Virus record (IMG/VR): IMGVR_UViG_3300030085_000034
Coordinates: 26,367-56,251 of that record
Length of the DNA: 29,885 nucleotides
Source: a virus
Strand: one strand, 5' to 3'
Part shown: positions 24,651-28,340 of the stretch, one piece after another
Layout: each line of letters begins with the position of its first letter
Position numbering within the stretch: the first letter of the stretch is position 1
Translations under genes and position numbers: made by a program
Notes under the pieces: generated by a model
Seen by the model: the letters and a program-made list of their open reading frames with translations, nothing else
What the model was told of the DNA's origin: nothing
Databases searched by the model: none

Positions 24651-24666
24651 AGTCCGACATCGGACT
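24651..24666. promoter_or_regulatory. AGTCCG palindrome, copy 1
   Basis: AGTCCG-ACAT-CGGACT, a perfect 6-bp inverted repeat around 4 bases. It lies in the 54-base gap between two leftward genes, about 18 bases upstream of the Shine-Dalgarno of the 126-residue gene. As DNA it could be an operator, as RNA a 5'-leader hairpin. See the other copies at 25220, 26303, 26851 and 27918. Confidence 0.8.
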
Positions 24667-24671
24667 TAGGG

Positions 24672-24923
24672 TTAGTCTTTGCTCCACTCACGCAGAACAT
24701 ACTTGGCACGATTTATATACTGACGAGCAGTCTCATCCATACCACGAGCAATGCACTCTTGTGCATCAGATAAGATGGACATTGCAAGCATATAATGTCC
24801 ACCAATGAAATTCATCGGGTCATTCATCATGCACAGCATATCGTCTTGTGTGCATCCATACATTGTCATAAAACGCTTTTCCGTTTCGGTTTGAGCAACG
24901 TCATCCCAAGTTAAATCACCCAT
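24672..24923 (-). CDS. Small helical protein, unknown function
   Basis: An 83-residue helical protein, MGDLTWDDVAQTETEKRFMT at the N-terminus, unusually rich in Met and with a few Cys. The open frame extends 45 codons upstream across the neighbouring gene, but CAGGAG lies 7 bases before ATG 24923, giving a normal 8-base overlap. The C-terminal half (DETARQYINRAKYVLREW) looks like an amphipathic helix. No family recognised. Confidence 0.65.
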   Translation of the reverse strand: MGDLTWDDVAQTETEKRFMTMYGCTQDDMLCMMNDPMNFIGGHYMLAMSILSDAQECIARGMDETARQYINRAKYVLREWSKD

Positions 24924-25092
24924 AGCTTTGCTCCTGTATCTTACGCTTTGCATTACGTGCCGCTTTGCGGTCACGCTTCCAATCGTCACGCTTTGGGTTG
25001 GCAGTCTTACGCACTGGCAACTTCTCAAATACGCTAACGTCATTCCAGTCATGGTCAAACTCAGGATTTATCATTGTGTGTTTTGTTCGCAC
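24916..25092 (-). CDS. Small basic protein, unknown function
   Basis: About 58 residues, with an acidic start region (INPEFDHDWNDVSVF) and a very basic second half (RDDWKRDRKAARNAKRKIQE), which could bind nucleic acid. The start is probably GTG 25092, because AAGGAG is 7 bases before it but touches the ATG at 25098. It overlaps the preceding basic protein by 32 bases in another frame, which is long for this operon. Confidence 0.55.
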   Translation of the reverse strand: MRTKHTMINPEFDHDWNDVSVFEKLPVRKTANPKRDDWKRDRKAARNAKRKIQEQSYG

Positions 25093-25207
25093 GATCATTC
25101 TCCTTTTTGCGATTGTACTTCTTTTTGTCAGGCACTACTTGTGTACGCTTACGATTAGTCTGTAGGAGTGCCTTTGCTACAGGGTTAATAGTATTTCTAA
25201 TTCGCAT
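25061..25207 (-). CDS. Small basic protein behind palindrome copy 2
   Basis: A 48-residue, highly basic protein beginning MRIRNTINPVAKALLQTNRK, with VVPDKKKYNRKK after it. I recall similar tiny basic proteins, with KKKYNRK motifs, in many marine and enteric phages; function unknown. GGAG is 6 bases before the ATG, and the AGTCCG palindrome lies just 2 bases beyond the GGAG, so a hairpin there could control ribosome access. It is the first gene of its segment. Confidence 0.7.
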   Translation of the reverse strand: MRIRNTINPVAKALLQTNRKRTQVVPDKKKYNRKKENDRANKTHNDKS

Positions 25208-25219
25208 TGTAATCTCCAT

Positions 25220-25235
25220 AGTCCGCTGTCGGACT
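25220..25235. promoter_or_regulatory. AGTCCG palindrome, copy 2
   Basis: AGTCCG-CTGT-CGGACT, the same 6+4+6 palindrome as copies 3 and 5. It stands 2 bases upstream of the GGAG of the 48-residue gene, and 20 bases from the CACTT/AAGTG element. It is the closest of all copies to a Shine-Dalgarno sequence. Confidence 0.85.
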
Positions 25236-25255
25236 TATCTAGTATACCTAAGTGT

Positions 25256-25288
25256 AATACACTTTCACTAAAGTTCAAGTGTTATTAC
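25256..25288 (-). promoter_or_regulatory. CACTT/AAGTG element B, candidate promoter/operator
   Basis: A 33-bp element almost identical to that at 26342-26374. On the plus strand it reads AATACACTTTCACTA, three variable bases, TTCAAGTGT, then an AT-rich end. It contains inverted CACTT/AAGTG arms, and just outside it AAGTGTA-A-TACACTT forms a 15-bp palindrome. In the leftward sense it precedes TATACT and the AGTCCG palindrome. This fits a promoter with operators, though no consensus -35/-10 pair at 17 bases can be assigned. Confidence 0.55.
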
Positions 25289-25310
25289 ACGTAAGGTATA
25301 CGTAAGAGGT

Positions 25311-25997
25311 TTAGCCATTTGCCACGGCATCAGCTTTCTTCTTGCTAGTGCCGTGAGCAGGGAAGCCAATGATGAAGTCACGCTGCCTCTGGCAAAGCTG
25401 GCAAGTGGCACAGGATACATCATCACGTATTGCTGCAGGACACACAACTACCTTGCGACCTTGTGGCGTGGTAGTGTTTGTAGTCTGGTCAATAGGCAAT
25501 ACTGTAGCCACAGGGCCAGCATCCAAGTCAGCAAGCTGGTCAGCATGGGTCATGTTATTGGCAGATAGATTGACAGTGAAACCAGAACGATTCATATGCG
25601 TCACAATCATGCGGTTACGCTCACTCTCAATCACAGGATAGTGAGTGTATGTGAAGCCACGCTTGCCCTCATTGGCTTGTGTCAATTCCATGCAAGCTGT
25701 AGCATCAAGCTGGTCATTGCGACCCGGCAAATCACCAGCCTGATTATGCCTCCACAAAGTGTCAGCTTTCAGATTGGCAATCTTGCCAGTAAACACAGAC
25801 CAAGTGTCACCACGGGCTTTGTCGGATACCTTCATCCAGTGCATCTTGAGTGGCCCTGATTCTGCGTAGCAACCGCCCTCATTGGCATTATTGAACGGGC
25901 AAGCATCAGGGCAAGTCTGTGCCTCAGTCGTAGACACAGGGATAGGGCCAGTCTTTTCGTTCTTGGATTTAGGGGTCAAGTGTACTTGATAAGTCAT
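25311..25997 (-). CDS. Cys-rich phage protein, radical-SAM/Gp88-like features
   Basis: A 228-residue protein of a family common in phages (DUF7227-like, from memory) without known activity. It has two cysteine groups: C29-x3-C33-x9-C43 in TCPDACPF...GGCYAESGP, and C186, C196, C199 and C202 in VCPAAIRDDVSCATCQLC. Between them are LWRHNQAGDLPG (81-92), GKRGFTYTHYP (111-121) and GFTVNLSANNMTHAD. The C-CYA group followed by barrel-like strands resembles Gp37/Gp68 and Gp88-type Fe-S proteins, so an iron-sulfur enzyme is plausible but unproven. GGAG is 7 bases before the ATG, which overlaps the previous stop by 4 bases. The 103-base gap downstream holds element B and palindrome copy 2. Confidence 0.7.
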   Translation of the reverse strand: MTYQVHLTPKSKNEKTGPIPVSTTEAQTCPDACPFNNANEGGCYAESGPLKMHWMKVSDKARGDTWSVFTGKIANLKADTLWRHNQAGDLPGRNDQLDATACMELTQANEGKRGFTYTHYPVIESERNRMIVTHMNRSGFTVNLSANNMTHADQLADLDAGPVATVLPIDQTTNTTTPQGRKVVVCPAAIRDDVSCATCQLCQRQRDFIIGFPAHGTSKKKADAVANG

Positions 25998-26284
25998 ATC
26001 TGTTCTCCATACAGCTTTGTAATTTCAGCATCCACTTCGTGAATACAGGCTTGCAAGAAACCCCAATGCCTAGCGCAATCGGGCGGGTCTTGTTCAAACG
26101 AGTACACAGCGGCTCTCGCATCTATGTCACCATTAGCTATTTCATCTTCAGCCATTTGATAGCCCTCGACAAAATCAGCATGGTAAAACTGTTCAGCATG
26201 GCACATATTGCAGTAATAATCTTCGCAATACGGCACATAAACAGTAGCATTTTGCTGGTCACAGCAAGCACATTTTCTACTCAT
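25994..26284 (-). CDS. Zinc-ribbon-like small protein
   Basis: A 96-residue protein with an N-terminal cysteine cluster (C5, C7, C8 in RKCACCDQ; C20; C25 and C28 in YYCNMCHAEQ), probably a zinc-binding module, followed by an acidic helical C-terminal part. No DNA-binding helix is evident. CGGAG lies 6 bases before the ATG, and palindrome copy 3 is about 7 bases further upstream. It is translationally coupled (ATGA) to the Cys-rich protein that follows, so the two may work together. Confidence 0.7.
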   Translation of the reverse strand: MSRKCACCDQQNATVYVPYCEDYYCNMCHAEQFYHADFVEGYQMAEDEIANGDIDARAAVYSFEQDPPDCARHWGFLQACIHEVDAEITKLYGEQI

Positions 26285-26302
26285 TTCAAACTCCGTTTGT
26301 AA

Positions 26303-26318
26303 AGTCCGCTGTCGGACT
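26303..26318. promoter_or_regulatory. AGTCCG palindrome, copy 3
   Basis: AGTCCG-CTGT-CGGACT, identical to copies 2 and 5. It lies about 7 bases upstream of the CGGAG of the zinc-ribbon gene and 23 bases from element A. The 100-base gap around it contains no gene. Confidence 0.85.
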
Positions 26319-26341
26319 ATGGTTAGTAGTGTATATAAGTA

Positions 26342-26374
26342 AATACACTTTCACTATGTTTCAAGTGTATTTAC
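26342..26374 (-). promoter_or_regulatory. CACTT/AAGTG element A, candidate promoter/operator
   Basis: The second copy of the 33-bp element: AATACACTTTCACTA, three variable bases, TTCAAGTGT and an AT-rich end, as at 25256-25288. In the leftward sense ACTTGAA and GTGAAAGTGTATT precede TATATACACTA, giving weak -35-like and -10-like hexamers. Its place upstream of a palindrome and a gene start is the same as for copy B. Confidence 0.55.
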
Positions 26375-26384
26375 GTTATTCACA

Positions 26385-26600
26385 CTAAAGCAAGCTGTCA
26401 AGTATTGCCAAGGCTTCAGCCTTGTCTTGCTCTTTGCGGTATCTCTCAGCCCAAGCATCAGCTTGGCCTGTGACATAAACACGGAACTCAGGCCGTGTCT
26501 CAGGCTCATAGCTACGGCTATAGGCTTTGCAATCCATAGACTGCCAGCTTGAGCCTAAAGGCTTGTGACGACCCATTGGTGTGATAAATTTTCTAGCCAT
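26385..26600 (-). CDS. Small basic protein, unknown function
   Basis: A 71-residue protein beginning MARKFITPMGRHKPLGSSWQ, with a middle strand EFRVYVTGQADAW and a C-terminal helix YRKEQDKAEALAILDSLL. The start at 26600 is preferred over a longer frame because it gives the typical 8-base overlap with the preceding membrane protein and GAGG lies 10 bases upstream. Function unknown. Confidence 0.65.
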   Translation of the reverse strand: MARKFITPMGRHKPLGSSWQSMDCKAYSRSYEPETRPEFRVYVTGQADAWAERYRKEQDKAEALAILDSLL

Positions 26601-26829
26601 TGTTTGAATACCTCGCCATAATTTCATCTTCGATGCGGCATTGTCTAATCCGCAAAGCACTGTCATAAAAACACAAACCCATTGCCCAAGTCATAAAGCT
26701 AATGCAAAGCATTATCCCTGCAGACATAGCATCATACATCACAAGTATGAATGGGGCTGACGCAAAGGCCATGAACGCTACACACCACCAGAACAGGCAG
26801 CAAATGCTATGGAAATATTCTCTAATCAT
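26593..26829 (-). CDS. Two-helix membrane protein behind palindrome copy 4
   Basis: A 78-residue protein with two membrane helices (about 8-33 and 36-55), rich in Cys, Met, Trp and Phe, and a charged C-terminal tail (RIRQCRIEDEIMARYSNNG). CGGAG is 8 bases before ATG 26829; an upstream TTG is not needed. Palindrome copy 4 is about 8 bases beyond the Shine-Dalgarno. Possible roles are altering the host membrane or excluding other phages; the sequence does not decide. Confidence 0.7.
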   Translation of the reverse strand: MIREYFHSICCLFWWCVAFMAFASAPFILVMYDAMSAGIMLCISFMTWAMGLCFYDSALRIRQCRIEDEIMARYSNNG

Positions 26830-26850
26830 TTTCAATACTCCGTATTGTTA

Positions 26851-26866
26851 AGTCCGCTATCGGACT
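26851..26866. promoter_or_regulatory. AGTCCG palindrome, copy 4
   Basis: AGTCCG-CTAT-CGGACT. It lies in the 57-base gap between the 208-residue gene and the membrane protein gene, about 8 bases upstream of CGGAG. The variable centre (CTAT against CTGT) leaves the arms intact, as expected if pairing or symmetric binding matters. Confidence 0.8.
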
Positions 26867-26886
26867 ATGAAAGGGTAGACTGCAGC

Positions 26887-27513
26887 TTACGCTGCAGCCT
26901 TGATTACTGACTTGTCAGTAGAGTCGTCTAACATTTCCAACTGCTCTTTAAGAGCAGCTAGAAACTTGGCTTTGGATACACCATTCAGTTCACACTGAAC
27001 TAACGCTTCCAAAGCAATGTCAGAAGCTGACAAGGGAGCCTTTGGCTCAACAGAGGACTTGTCCTCAACAGCCAAGACAGGAGCCTTTGGCTCAACAGGA
27101 ACCTTTGGTTCTTTCTCAACCTTTGGGTTGACAATTTTGTCTACCTCTTTCAAGAGGTCTTTCATGTGGCAAATCGTAGATTTCTTGCCAAGCAAATCGT
27201 TTTCAACGATTACATGGAAGTTCTCAAAGAACTTCATAGCTTCACTTCTTCGTTGCTTTGCAACAGTGTGAAGGTTGGCATCTTTCAGCAAAGCTGAATC
27301 AGTCTTCTTGCCGCCAGACTGCTTTAGCAGTTCAAGACAGATTTCCCCAAGGGAAAACCAGAAGCCATCCTTAGCACAAAGTGCTTTGAAGCGGTTGACA
27401 TCACCTCTGGTGATTGACTTATCCCATTGGGATAATACTAAGCCTTTGGCTTGAACAGTGTTATTAGCTTCAGCTAATTGAACAGCGAAAGATTTTTTGG
27501 TTGAGTTTGCCAT
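26887..27513 (-). CDS. First protein of the leftward operon, unknown function
   Basis: A 208-residue basic protein, the first gene of the whole leftward transcription unit and so probably expressed first. It has an N-terminal helical domain (about 1-128) with many Lys, a Pro/Lys/Glu linker (132-160) with repeated VEPKAP, and a small C-terminal helical domain ending VIKAAA. No helix-turn-helix or enzyme motif is clear. Two domains on a flexible linker and the basic charge fit a nucleic-acid-binding protein, by inference. AGGAG is 8 bases before the ATG, and the 61-bp inverted repeat begins 21 bases upstream, which could allow self-regulation. Confidence 0.7.
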   Translation of the reverse strand: MANSTKKSFAVQLAEANNTVQAKGLVLSQWDKSITRGDVNRFKALCAKDGFWFSLGEICLELLKQSGGKKTDSALLKDANLHTVAKQRRSEAMKFFENFHVIVENDLLGKKSTICHMKDLLKEVDKIVNPKVEKEPKVPVEPKAPVLAVEDKSSVEPKAPLSASDIALEALVQCELNGVSKAKFLAALKEQLEMLDDSTDKSVIKAAA

Positions 27514-27534
27514 TTGAACTTCTCCTAAGTTGAA

Positions 27535-27595
27535 GGTTTTATAAAGATATATTAATTACTCACCCTAACGGGTGATTAATATATCTGTTAAAACC
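27535..27595. repeat. 61-bp imperfect inverted repeat upstream of the leftward operon
   Basis: Nested arms: GGTTTTA/TAAAACC outside (27535-27541, 27589-27595), AGATATATTAAT/ATTAATATATCT inside (27545-27556, 27575-27586), then CACCC/GGGTG around a TAAC loop (27561-27574). Small bulges of 2 to 4 bases separate the arms, giving 24 paired bases in all. It may be an operator, a leader-RNA hairpin, a terminator or an origin-like structure. Confidence 0.85.
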
Positions 27596-28162
27596 GTAAC
27601 AACTTAGAGAGGTTTTCGTGTGACGCATTGCCTGATCGTCTGCCCCTGCCGTTTCCCGTGTGGTTGCAGGAAACTTTGTTTCCGAAACTGGTGCGTGAAA
27701 CTTGTGCGGCTGCGAGGCTGACCCTTGGCTGAGAGGGGTATAGTGTAGCAGAAAAACTGTATAGCTATGGCTATACAAAATTGATGCATCAGCATTGCAA
27801 CTTGTTGCAAAATCTGTATGGCTGGCCTCAACATCATGCTAAAGCATGGCAACTGTTACCACAACAGTTGTTTACAACTGGCTGTTTGGGAAAAGATATA
27901 ACATTTTCAATGTTCTAAGTCCGCTGTCGGACTATGAATGGCTCTTACCATACGCTATGCGCTGGCATAATGCGGCACACACAGGCGCAGTAAGGCGGGT
28001 AGGCCGGGGCCACCGGGTGGGTGTGCGTATATGTATACACATAAATACACAGATTAGGTAAATCAACTGTTAACCACAGAAGCAACTGACAAATACCTTA
28101 TGCACAAGCATTGTGCAATTGCCTAAATATTAGGCATATGTAATTATTTTGCATAGGGGGTA
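27596..28162. other. Non-coding hairpin-rich region (candidate origin or structured RNA)
   Basis: No open frame here has a ribosome-binding site. The region is crowded with perfect short inverted repeats with loops of 2 to 5 bases: GGAAAC/GTTTCC (27669-27683), TGTATAGC/GCTATACA (27758-27777), TTGCAAC/GTTGCAA (27795-27810), CATGCT/AGCATG (27835-27848), CAACTGTT/AACAGTTG (27850-27870), CAGTTGT/ACAACTG (27865-27880), AACATT/AATGTT (27900-27914), the AGTCCG palindrome (27918-27933), TGCACAA/TTGTGCA (28101-28117) and TGCCTAA/TTAGGCA (28120-28136). A GC-rich patch lies near 27960-28025. No tRNA was recognised. It is the divergence point between the two gene directions, a usual place for origins and control regions. 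Confidence 0.65.
27918..27933. promoter_or_regulatory. AGTCCG palindrome, copy 5
   Basis: AGTCCG-CTGT-CGGACT inside the non-coding divergent region, about 400 bases upstream of the first leftward gene. Unlike the other four copies it has no Shine-Dalgarno next to it, which suggests that the element acts as a DNA site or RNA-processing site rather than only at ribosome-binding sites. Confidence 0.8.
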
Positions 28163-28191
28163 TTGACATACTTGACAAAATCTGGTATAAT
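28163..28191 (+). promoter_or_regulatory. Consensus sigma70 promoter, rightward
   Basis: TTGACA (28163-28168), 17 bases, TATAAT (28186-28191): a perfect match to the host housekeeping promoter with optimal spacing. AT-rich sequence lies upstream. Transcription would start near 28198 and read into the rightward small genes. The operator-like palindromes directly downstream suggest repression. Confidence 0.85.
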
Positions 28192-28210
28192 TATATAACT
28201 AACACACCCC

Positions 28211-28340
28211 ACAGTTAAACTGTACACTTAACTGACTTTATAGTTAAGATATATAAATCACTAGACTGTACAGTTTAACTGTACAGAGTTAGATGGTACT
28301 AAATTTTCTTTGCTAACTCACTTTAACTGTACACTTAACT
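28211..28340. promoter_or_regulatory. Operator-like ACAGTT-W-AACTGT repeats
   Basis: Two 13-bp palindromes ACAGTT-A-AACTGT (28211-28223) and ACAGTT-T-AACTGT (28270-28282), the second extended to a 21-bp palindrome at 28266-28286. A third, half site AACTGT lies at 28325-28330. The 16 bases AACTGTACACTTAACT occur exactly twice (28218-28233 and 28325-28340). All are just downstream of the consensus promoter, in the leader of the rightward genes, a usual place for repressor binding. The same half sites recur at 27851, 27864 and 28065. Confidence 0.6.

Follow-up and report, generated by a model that had tools for sequence, protein, structure and literature searches.

We analysed a window of 29,885 bases, the final part of a 56,251-bp virus record (IMGVR_UViG_3300030085_000034), in which a 16-bp palindrome, AGTCCG-N4-CGGACT, recurs among the first genes of a leftward operon. 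This operon, which lies below 27.5 kb, is the early/replication module: a run of small genes is followed by genes for integrase, primase, helicase, DNA polymerase and ribonucleotide reductase. Its first gene encodes a 208-amino-acid (aa) product, here named P208. The family A DNA polymerase of the window showed 79% identity to that of Puniceispirillum phage HMO-2011, which has a SAR116 host, and 68–69% identity to those of Roseobacter phages CRP-345 and CRP-1; judged by these identities, the uncultured marine source phage is HMO-2011-type. P208 was 62% identical to its HMO-2011 counterpart across 200 aa. A tRNA scan detected none. The palindromes, designated putative operators 1–5, and the gene proposed to encode their reader are located as follows:

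27918..27933, minus strand: putative operator 1, control region and leader of the P208 gene; sense sequence AGTCCGACAGCGGACT
26887..27513, minus strand: P208 gene, first of the leftward operon; proposed operator reader on the grounds of co-occurrence, co-variation and a helical model
27130..27165, minus strand: codons of the predicted P208 helix 117–128, the proposed recognition helix, whose residues 118, 122 and 125 track an operator base pair
26851..26866, minus strand: putative operator 2, in the gap separating P208 from the small gene that follows; AGTCCGATAGCGGACT
26303..26318, minus strand: putative operator 3, leader of a 96-aa gene; AGTCCGACAGCGGACT
25220..25235, minus strand: putative operator 4, leader of a small gene, 5 nucleotides (nt) downstream of a −10-like TATACT; AGTCCGACAGCGGACT
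24651..24666, minus strand: putative operator 5, leader of a 126-aa gene, with no promoter evident; AGTCCGATGTCGGACT

The palindrome occurs exactly five times in the entire record, always within the window, and 100 dinucleotide shuffles gave an expected count of 0. No additional copy with up to two mismatches was present in the window, and a control pattern, the palindrome read backwards, had zero matches in the whole record. The initial annotation had reported five exact copies at 24651, 25220, 26303, 26851 and 27918, and each was confirmed at precisely these coordinates. The centres it listed (ACAT, CTGT, CTGT, CTAT, CTGT) are correct for the plus strand and read ATGT, ACAG, ACAG, ATAG and ACAG along the leftward transcript. 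As it had claimed, all five sites lie in gaps between leftward open reading frames or in the control region. All are in the early region and, relative to the leftward transcripts, in leaders or gaps. Its range of 2 to 18 nt to a Shine-Dalgarno sequence was right at the lower end (~2 nt at 25220; 8 at 26303 and 9 at 26851) and slightly short at the upper end (~20 nt at 24651). It had also reasoned that a regulatory motif should not be scattered through other parts of the genome and should persist in related phages. The rest of the genome was free of scattered sites, and the sites proved to be conserved in relatives.

Successive P208 searches yielded 24, 26, 32, 15, 9, 5 and 7 loci, in overlapping sets. 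The core dyad GTCCR-N4-YGGAC was present in 4–9 copies in the same early region of more than 80 related contigs and of the isolates HMO-2011, CRP-1 and CRP-345, at positions nearly identical to those in the window phage. Close relatives share the arm AGTCCG, and GGTCCG, AGTCCA, CGTCCA, TGTCCG and other variants occur elsewhere; the arms vary between genomes yet change jointly across all sites within one genome. Most relatives have a site ~230–320 nt upstream of P208. Many also carry one inside the P208 coding sequence, where it encodes SNVG if base pair 6/11 of the dyad is A:T (A-type) and SDSG or a similar peptide if that pair is G:C (G-type). Because the peptide differs by type, it is the DNA that is conserved at this position, not the peptide.

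The sites and P208 occur together. Sites were found at 86/86 P208 loci first examined, and also at the loci fetched later. Among whole isolate genomes, those with P208 contain five sites (HMO-2011), six (CRP-345) and five (CRP-1), and CRP-2, CRP-207, HTVC033P and CRP-3 contain neither P208 nor a site. CRP-1 and CRP-2 have a common host strain, FZCC0023, and the presence of sites in CRP-1 but not in CRP-2 argues against a host factor. Searching in the opposite direction, from the bare 16-mer AGTCCAATGTTGGACT, recovered 78 new stretches. Sites were clustered in 43 of these, and 31 of them encode P208 within the stretch; the other 35 had a lone site, and 1 of them encodes P208. Among the clustered remainder, three further contigs tested carry P208 at another place, and several others are short fragments. 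In 84,980 prokaryote species genomes, 80 pattern candidates were found, none of which encodes a P208 relative. Two observations in the relatives were set aside. A site-like GTCCAAGGTTGGAC inside integrase genes (L029:7078 in CRP-345; L030:6867 in CRP-1) has a centre that fits the family but is missing from the window's integrase, and it was not counted in the system; in-frame TAG codons in a P208 relative (L204/L147, IMGVR_UViG_3300050343_000057) suggest that the contig has a break in the reading frame rather than that the genome is recoded.

P208 also co-varies with the operator sequence. Across 301 non-redundant sites, pair 6/11 was A:T in 207, G:C in 86 and G:T (G.U in RNA) in 1. The type was uniform within a genome, with mixtures in 2 of 77 loci, and a tree built from 73 distinct P208 proteins shows about six changes of type, four of them forced by well-supported branches. 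In a first set of 59 proteins, a single alignment column, residue 118 (window numbering), split the two types. Fourteen distinct proteins fetched after this rule had been seen all conformed to it, with Ser in 4/4 G-type and Thr in 10/10 A-type proteins. Overall, Thr118 was found in 54/54 A-type proteins, and the 19 G-type proteins had Ser (9), Lys (9) or Thr (1). When each scattered G-type lineage was compared with its nearest A-type relative over 151 columns, only residues 118, 122, 125 and 154 differed in all five scattered switch lineages. Residue 154 was rejected as a specificity residue, since it follows the operator type merely because the in-gene operator encodes it. Residues 118, 122 and 125 are spaced i/i+4/i+7 on one face of the predicted helix 117–128, and every G-type P208 has Lys at 118 or 122. 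Lys–guanine contacts and contacts of Thr with the methyl group of thymine, known from protein–DNA recognition in general, might account for this residue pattern. Taken together, co-occurrence and co-variation strongly support the symmetric protein binding, perhaps by the 208-residue first product, that had been suggested at the outset. We consider it probable, with good confidence, that the palindromes are operators of P208, a phage-encoded sequence-specific DNA-binding protein acting as repressor or roadblock of the early operon.

AlphaFold models of P208 are helical, and the full-length model has high confidence for residues ~9–128. Matches to ToxA, DUF3742 and TAF4 were weak, isolated and not usable, and P208 apparently represents a new protein family. 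Its gene has a further peculiarity: 22 short perfect hairpins in 627 nt, compared with a codon-shuffled mean of 2.5 (z-score 13), and an RNA folding z-score of −8.2. Hairpin enrichment was seen in 41/41 P208 genes tested, the window's included (z-scores 4–14), with differing sequences. In the window, hairpin density is highest at P208 and its leader (to about 28100) and declines downstream, other genes being at or near background. Selection on the sense RNA was unsupported, as single mismatches showed no preference for G.U over A.C, and these hairpins perhaps act at the DNA level. A terminator-like hairpin, TTGTATAGCCATAGCTATACAG, followed by TTTTT (27757–27778, minus strand), lies in the long leader that separates operator 1 from P208; a small RNA or an attenuator may be encoded in this leader.

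A palindrome in a 5' leader could also be recognised as RNA, and the initial annotation had offered an RNA-processing or stabilising hairpin as its other reading. Such a hairpin would govern mRNA stability, processing or translation, perhaps with P208 bound to the RNA. The perfect 6-bp arms, the proximity to Shine-Dalgarno sequences and the position of one operator at a likely transcript start fit this idea, and at 251/293 sites the centre permits one additional pair. The pattern of variation does not. The dyad is a palindrome of 14–16 bp with a conserved half-site and a variable centre, and its GTCC/GGAC part is nearly invariant and lacks compensatory changes. Compensatory and G.U pairs would be expected in a drifting RNA stem but not in the two half-sites of a protein dimer, so the invariant dyad points to DNA. 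At the variable pair 6/11, G.U occurs once in 301 sites. The outer pair 1/16 is non-pairing at 136/293 sites, A.C, C.A and G.A combinations being as frequent as Watson-Crick pairs. Asymmetric sites are oriented both ways relative to transcription: the centre is inverted at one HMO-2011 site (site 60), and the CRP-like group has TGTCC..GGACG in the control region, the reverse complement of its other sites, CGTCC..GGACA. Some sites lie in coding sequence, far from any Shine-Dalgarno sequence. An Rfam scan of the region returned nothing except a chance-level miRNA match elsewhere, and no compensatory stem evolution was detected in the 301 sites. With non-pairing outer bases, near-absent G.U and inverted orientations, recognition of the dyad as DNA is much more likely than recognition as RNA, and the RNA-leader explanation is improbable.

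The promoter context bears on how P208 would act. Three elements accompany operators 3 and 4:

25241..25246, minus strand: −10-like TATACT of the operator-4 promoter (GTGAAA-16-TATACT)
25261..25274, minus strand: second conserved box ACTTTAGTGAAAGT, an imperfect dyad upstream of operator 4
26339..26374, minus strand: inverted repeat GTAAATACACTT/AAGTGTATTTAC with an AGTGA box, a variant of the second box, upstream of operator 3

In relatives that have the box, the commonest gap from the −10-like hexamer to the operator is 5–6 nt, which places the operator at about +1 to +16. The second box is possibly a promoter element or the site of another regulator. No promoter is in sight at operators 2 and 5. 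Because the operators lie at or just downstream of the likely transcription start, or without a promoter inside the operon, repression is the likeliest mode of action. We infer binding, dimerisation, repression and timing from the sites, their conservation, co-occurrence and co-variation, as follows. A P208 dimer would occupy each 16-bp dyad, one subunit per GTCCR half-site, with helix 117–128 reading base pair 6/11. Promoter-linked operators would allow P208 to occlude initiation, and operators without a promoter would act as roadblocks to elongation. P208 is probably autoregulated, as a site lies in its own leader and, in many relatives, also in its own coding sequence. The early genes would be shut off after a burst of expression, or held off in lysogeny in integrase-bearing members, which may be temperate; CRP-3, a phage without P208, does integrate (PMC6918029, PMC9038755).

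Several points weigh against this interpretation. P208 had no match above chance in Pfam, PHROGs or PDB sequences, known helix-turn-helix repressor families included, and Foldseek found no solved relative, so that a DNA-binding fold lacks independent support; the domain model is of moderate confidence only. One protein, L003, breaks the residue rule, being G-type with Thr118. A sign test with four to six independent pairs cannot alone reach 0.05, and early-region recombination could couple protein and operators without fully independent changes. The upstream box was found at 45/293 sites and promoter geometry is clear for a minority only, and the choice of repression over other actions is weakly supported.

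Among the alternatives that retain a protein, P208 could be an activator or antitermination factor of the early/middle operon, and leader sites could indeed load an elongation factor. An operator at about +1 to +16, 5–6 nt behind the −10-like hexamer, better suits occlusion, however, and autoregulatory placement is generally typical of repressors; we regard activation or antitermination as rather unlikely. Near-identical dyads within a few kb of the gene for their binder, some of them promoterless and some inside genes, also recall a partition or centromere-like cluster of the parS or plasmid KorB type, or a replication or organisation locus. The sites lie mostly in gene leaders near start codons, however, and comparison of P208 with ParB, ParG and other partition families gave nothing above chance (one member reached E 0.14 with ParG), a ParA gene being outside this search; such a function appears quite improbable. 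Finally, a host regulator or a different phage protein might use the sites as its operators, P208 being a mere passenger of the gene cluster. Other early genes adjoin the sites too, and co-variation was computed for P208. The shared host of CRP-1 and CRP-2 speaks against this, and three residues on a single P208 helix would not be expected to follow the operator base across separate switches in a passenger, which makes this explanation very improbable. Operators read by P208 itself thus remain the interpretation we prefer.

Adjacent to the region described here, positions 28163–28340 contain a rightward, perfect sigma-70-type promoter (TTGACA-17-TATAAT) followed by the repeats (A)CAGTTAAACTGTACA / TTAACTGTACACTT and inverted copies. 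These repeats resemble a distinct operator cluster that would serve the rightward genes.

Dispersed operators and elongation-blocking stoperators are known from cluster A mycobacteriophages (PMC9283540). The immunity repressor of L5 and TipsytheTRex resembles the proposed system in that one protein serves numerous near-identical sites, located at promoters and in the short gaps between genes of an operon, and in that protein and sites can co-diverge into different specificities (PMC9283540). The L5 sites, more than 20 genome-wide, are asymmetric 13-bp sequences that bind the repressor as a monomer and point in the direction of transcription (PMC9283540), whereas the 5–9 P208 sites are palindromic, lie only in the early region and take either orientation; P208 matched no known family, L5 gp71 not being among the proteins compared directly. 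Lambdoid CI and Cro share palindromic operators near early promoters, dimeric reading, a single recognition helix and autoregulation. Unlike theirs, the P208 sites are not grouped as triple operators; they are placed at the start or downstream of it, and within operons. No similarity of P208 to CI or Cro appeared in the Pfam or PHROGs scans. ParB–parS and KorB–OB likewise have dispersed palindromes near the gene of the binding protein, but P208 has no ParB-type match and its sites are in leaders. The searchable literature on HMO-2011-type phages, which does not include the HMO-2011 genome paper (Kang et al. 2013), mentions no promoter, palindrome, repressor, regulator or operator, and within it the annotation's "possibly undescribed" holds. 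The phage operator regulon is of a known kind, and the regulator family is apparently new.

These results have consequences for the phages concerned. P208 is a probable DNA-reading protein without a recognisable relative, and clustered GTCCR-N4-YGGAC provides a metagenome marker for one branch of HMO-2011-type phages. More speculatively, P208 might found a new class of phage DNA-binding regulators that has been re-targeted about six times through a small change on one helix face (for A:T, Thr118 with Ala122, often with Arg/Lys125; for G:C, Ser/Lys118 plus Lys122). Very abundant marine phages would then fall into immunity or regulatory groups that are blind to one another, and the dense DNA hairpin array of the P208 gene would join in its control; we regard this broader scenario as possible but less likely than not. 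Natural A-type/G-type pairs, such as the P208 proteins of CRP-1 (gp01, A-type) and HMO-2011 (gp74, G-type), make specificity and superinfection immunity directly testable. HMO-2011-type phages rank among the dominant ocean viruses, and a regulator, its operators and a probable specificity helix are now proposed for them.

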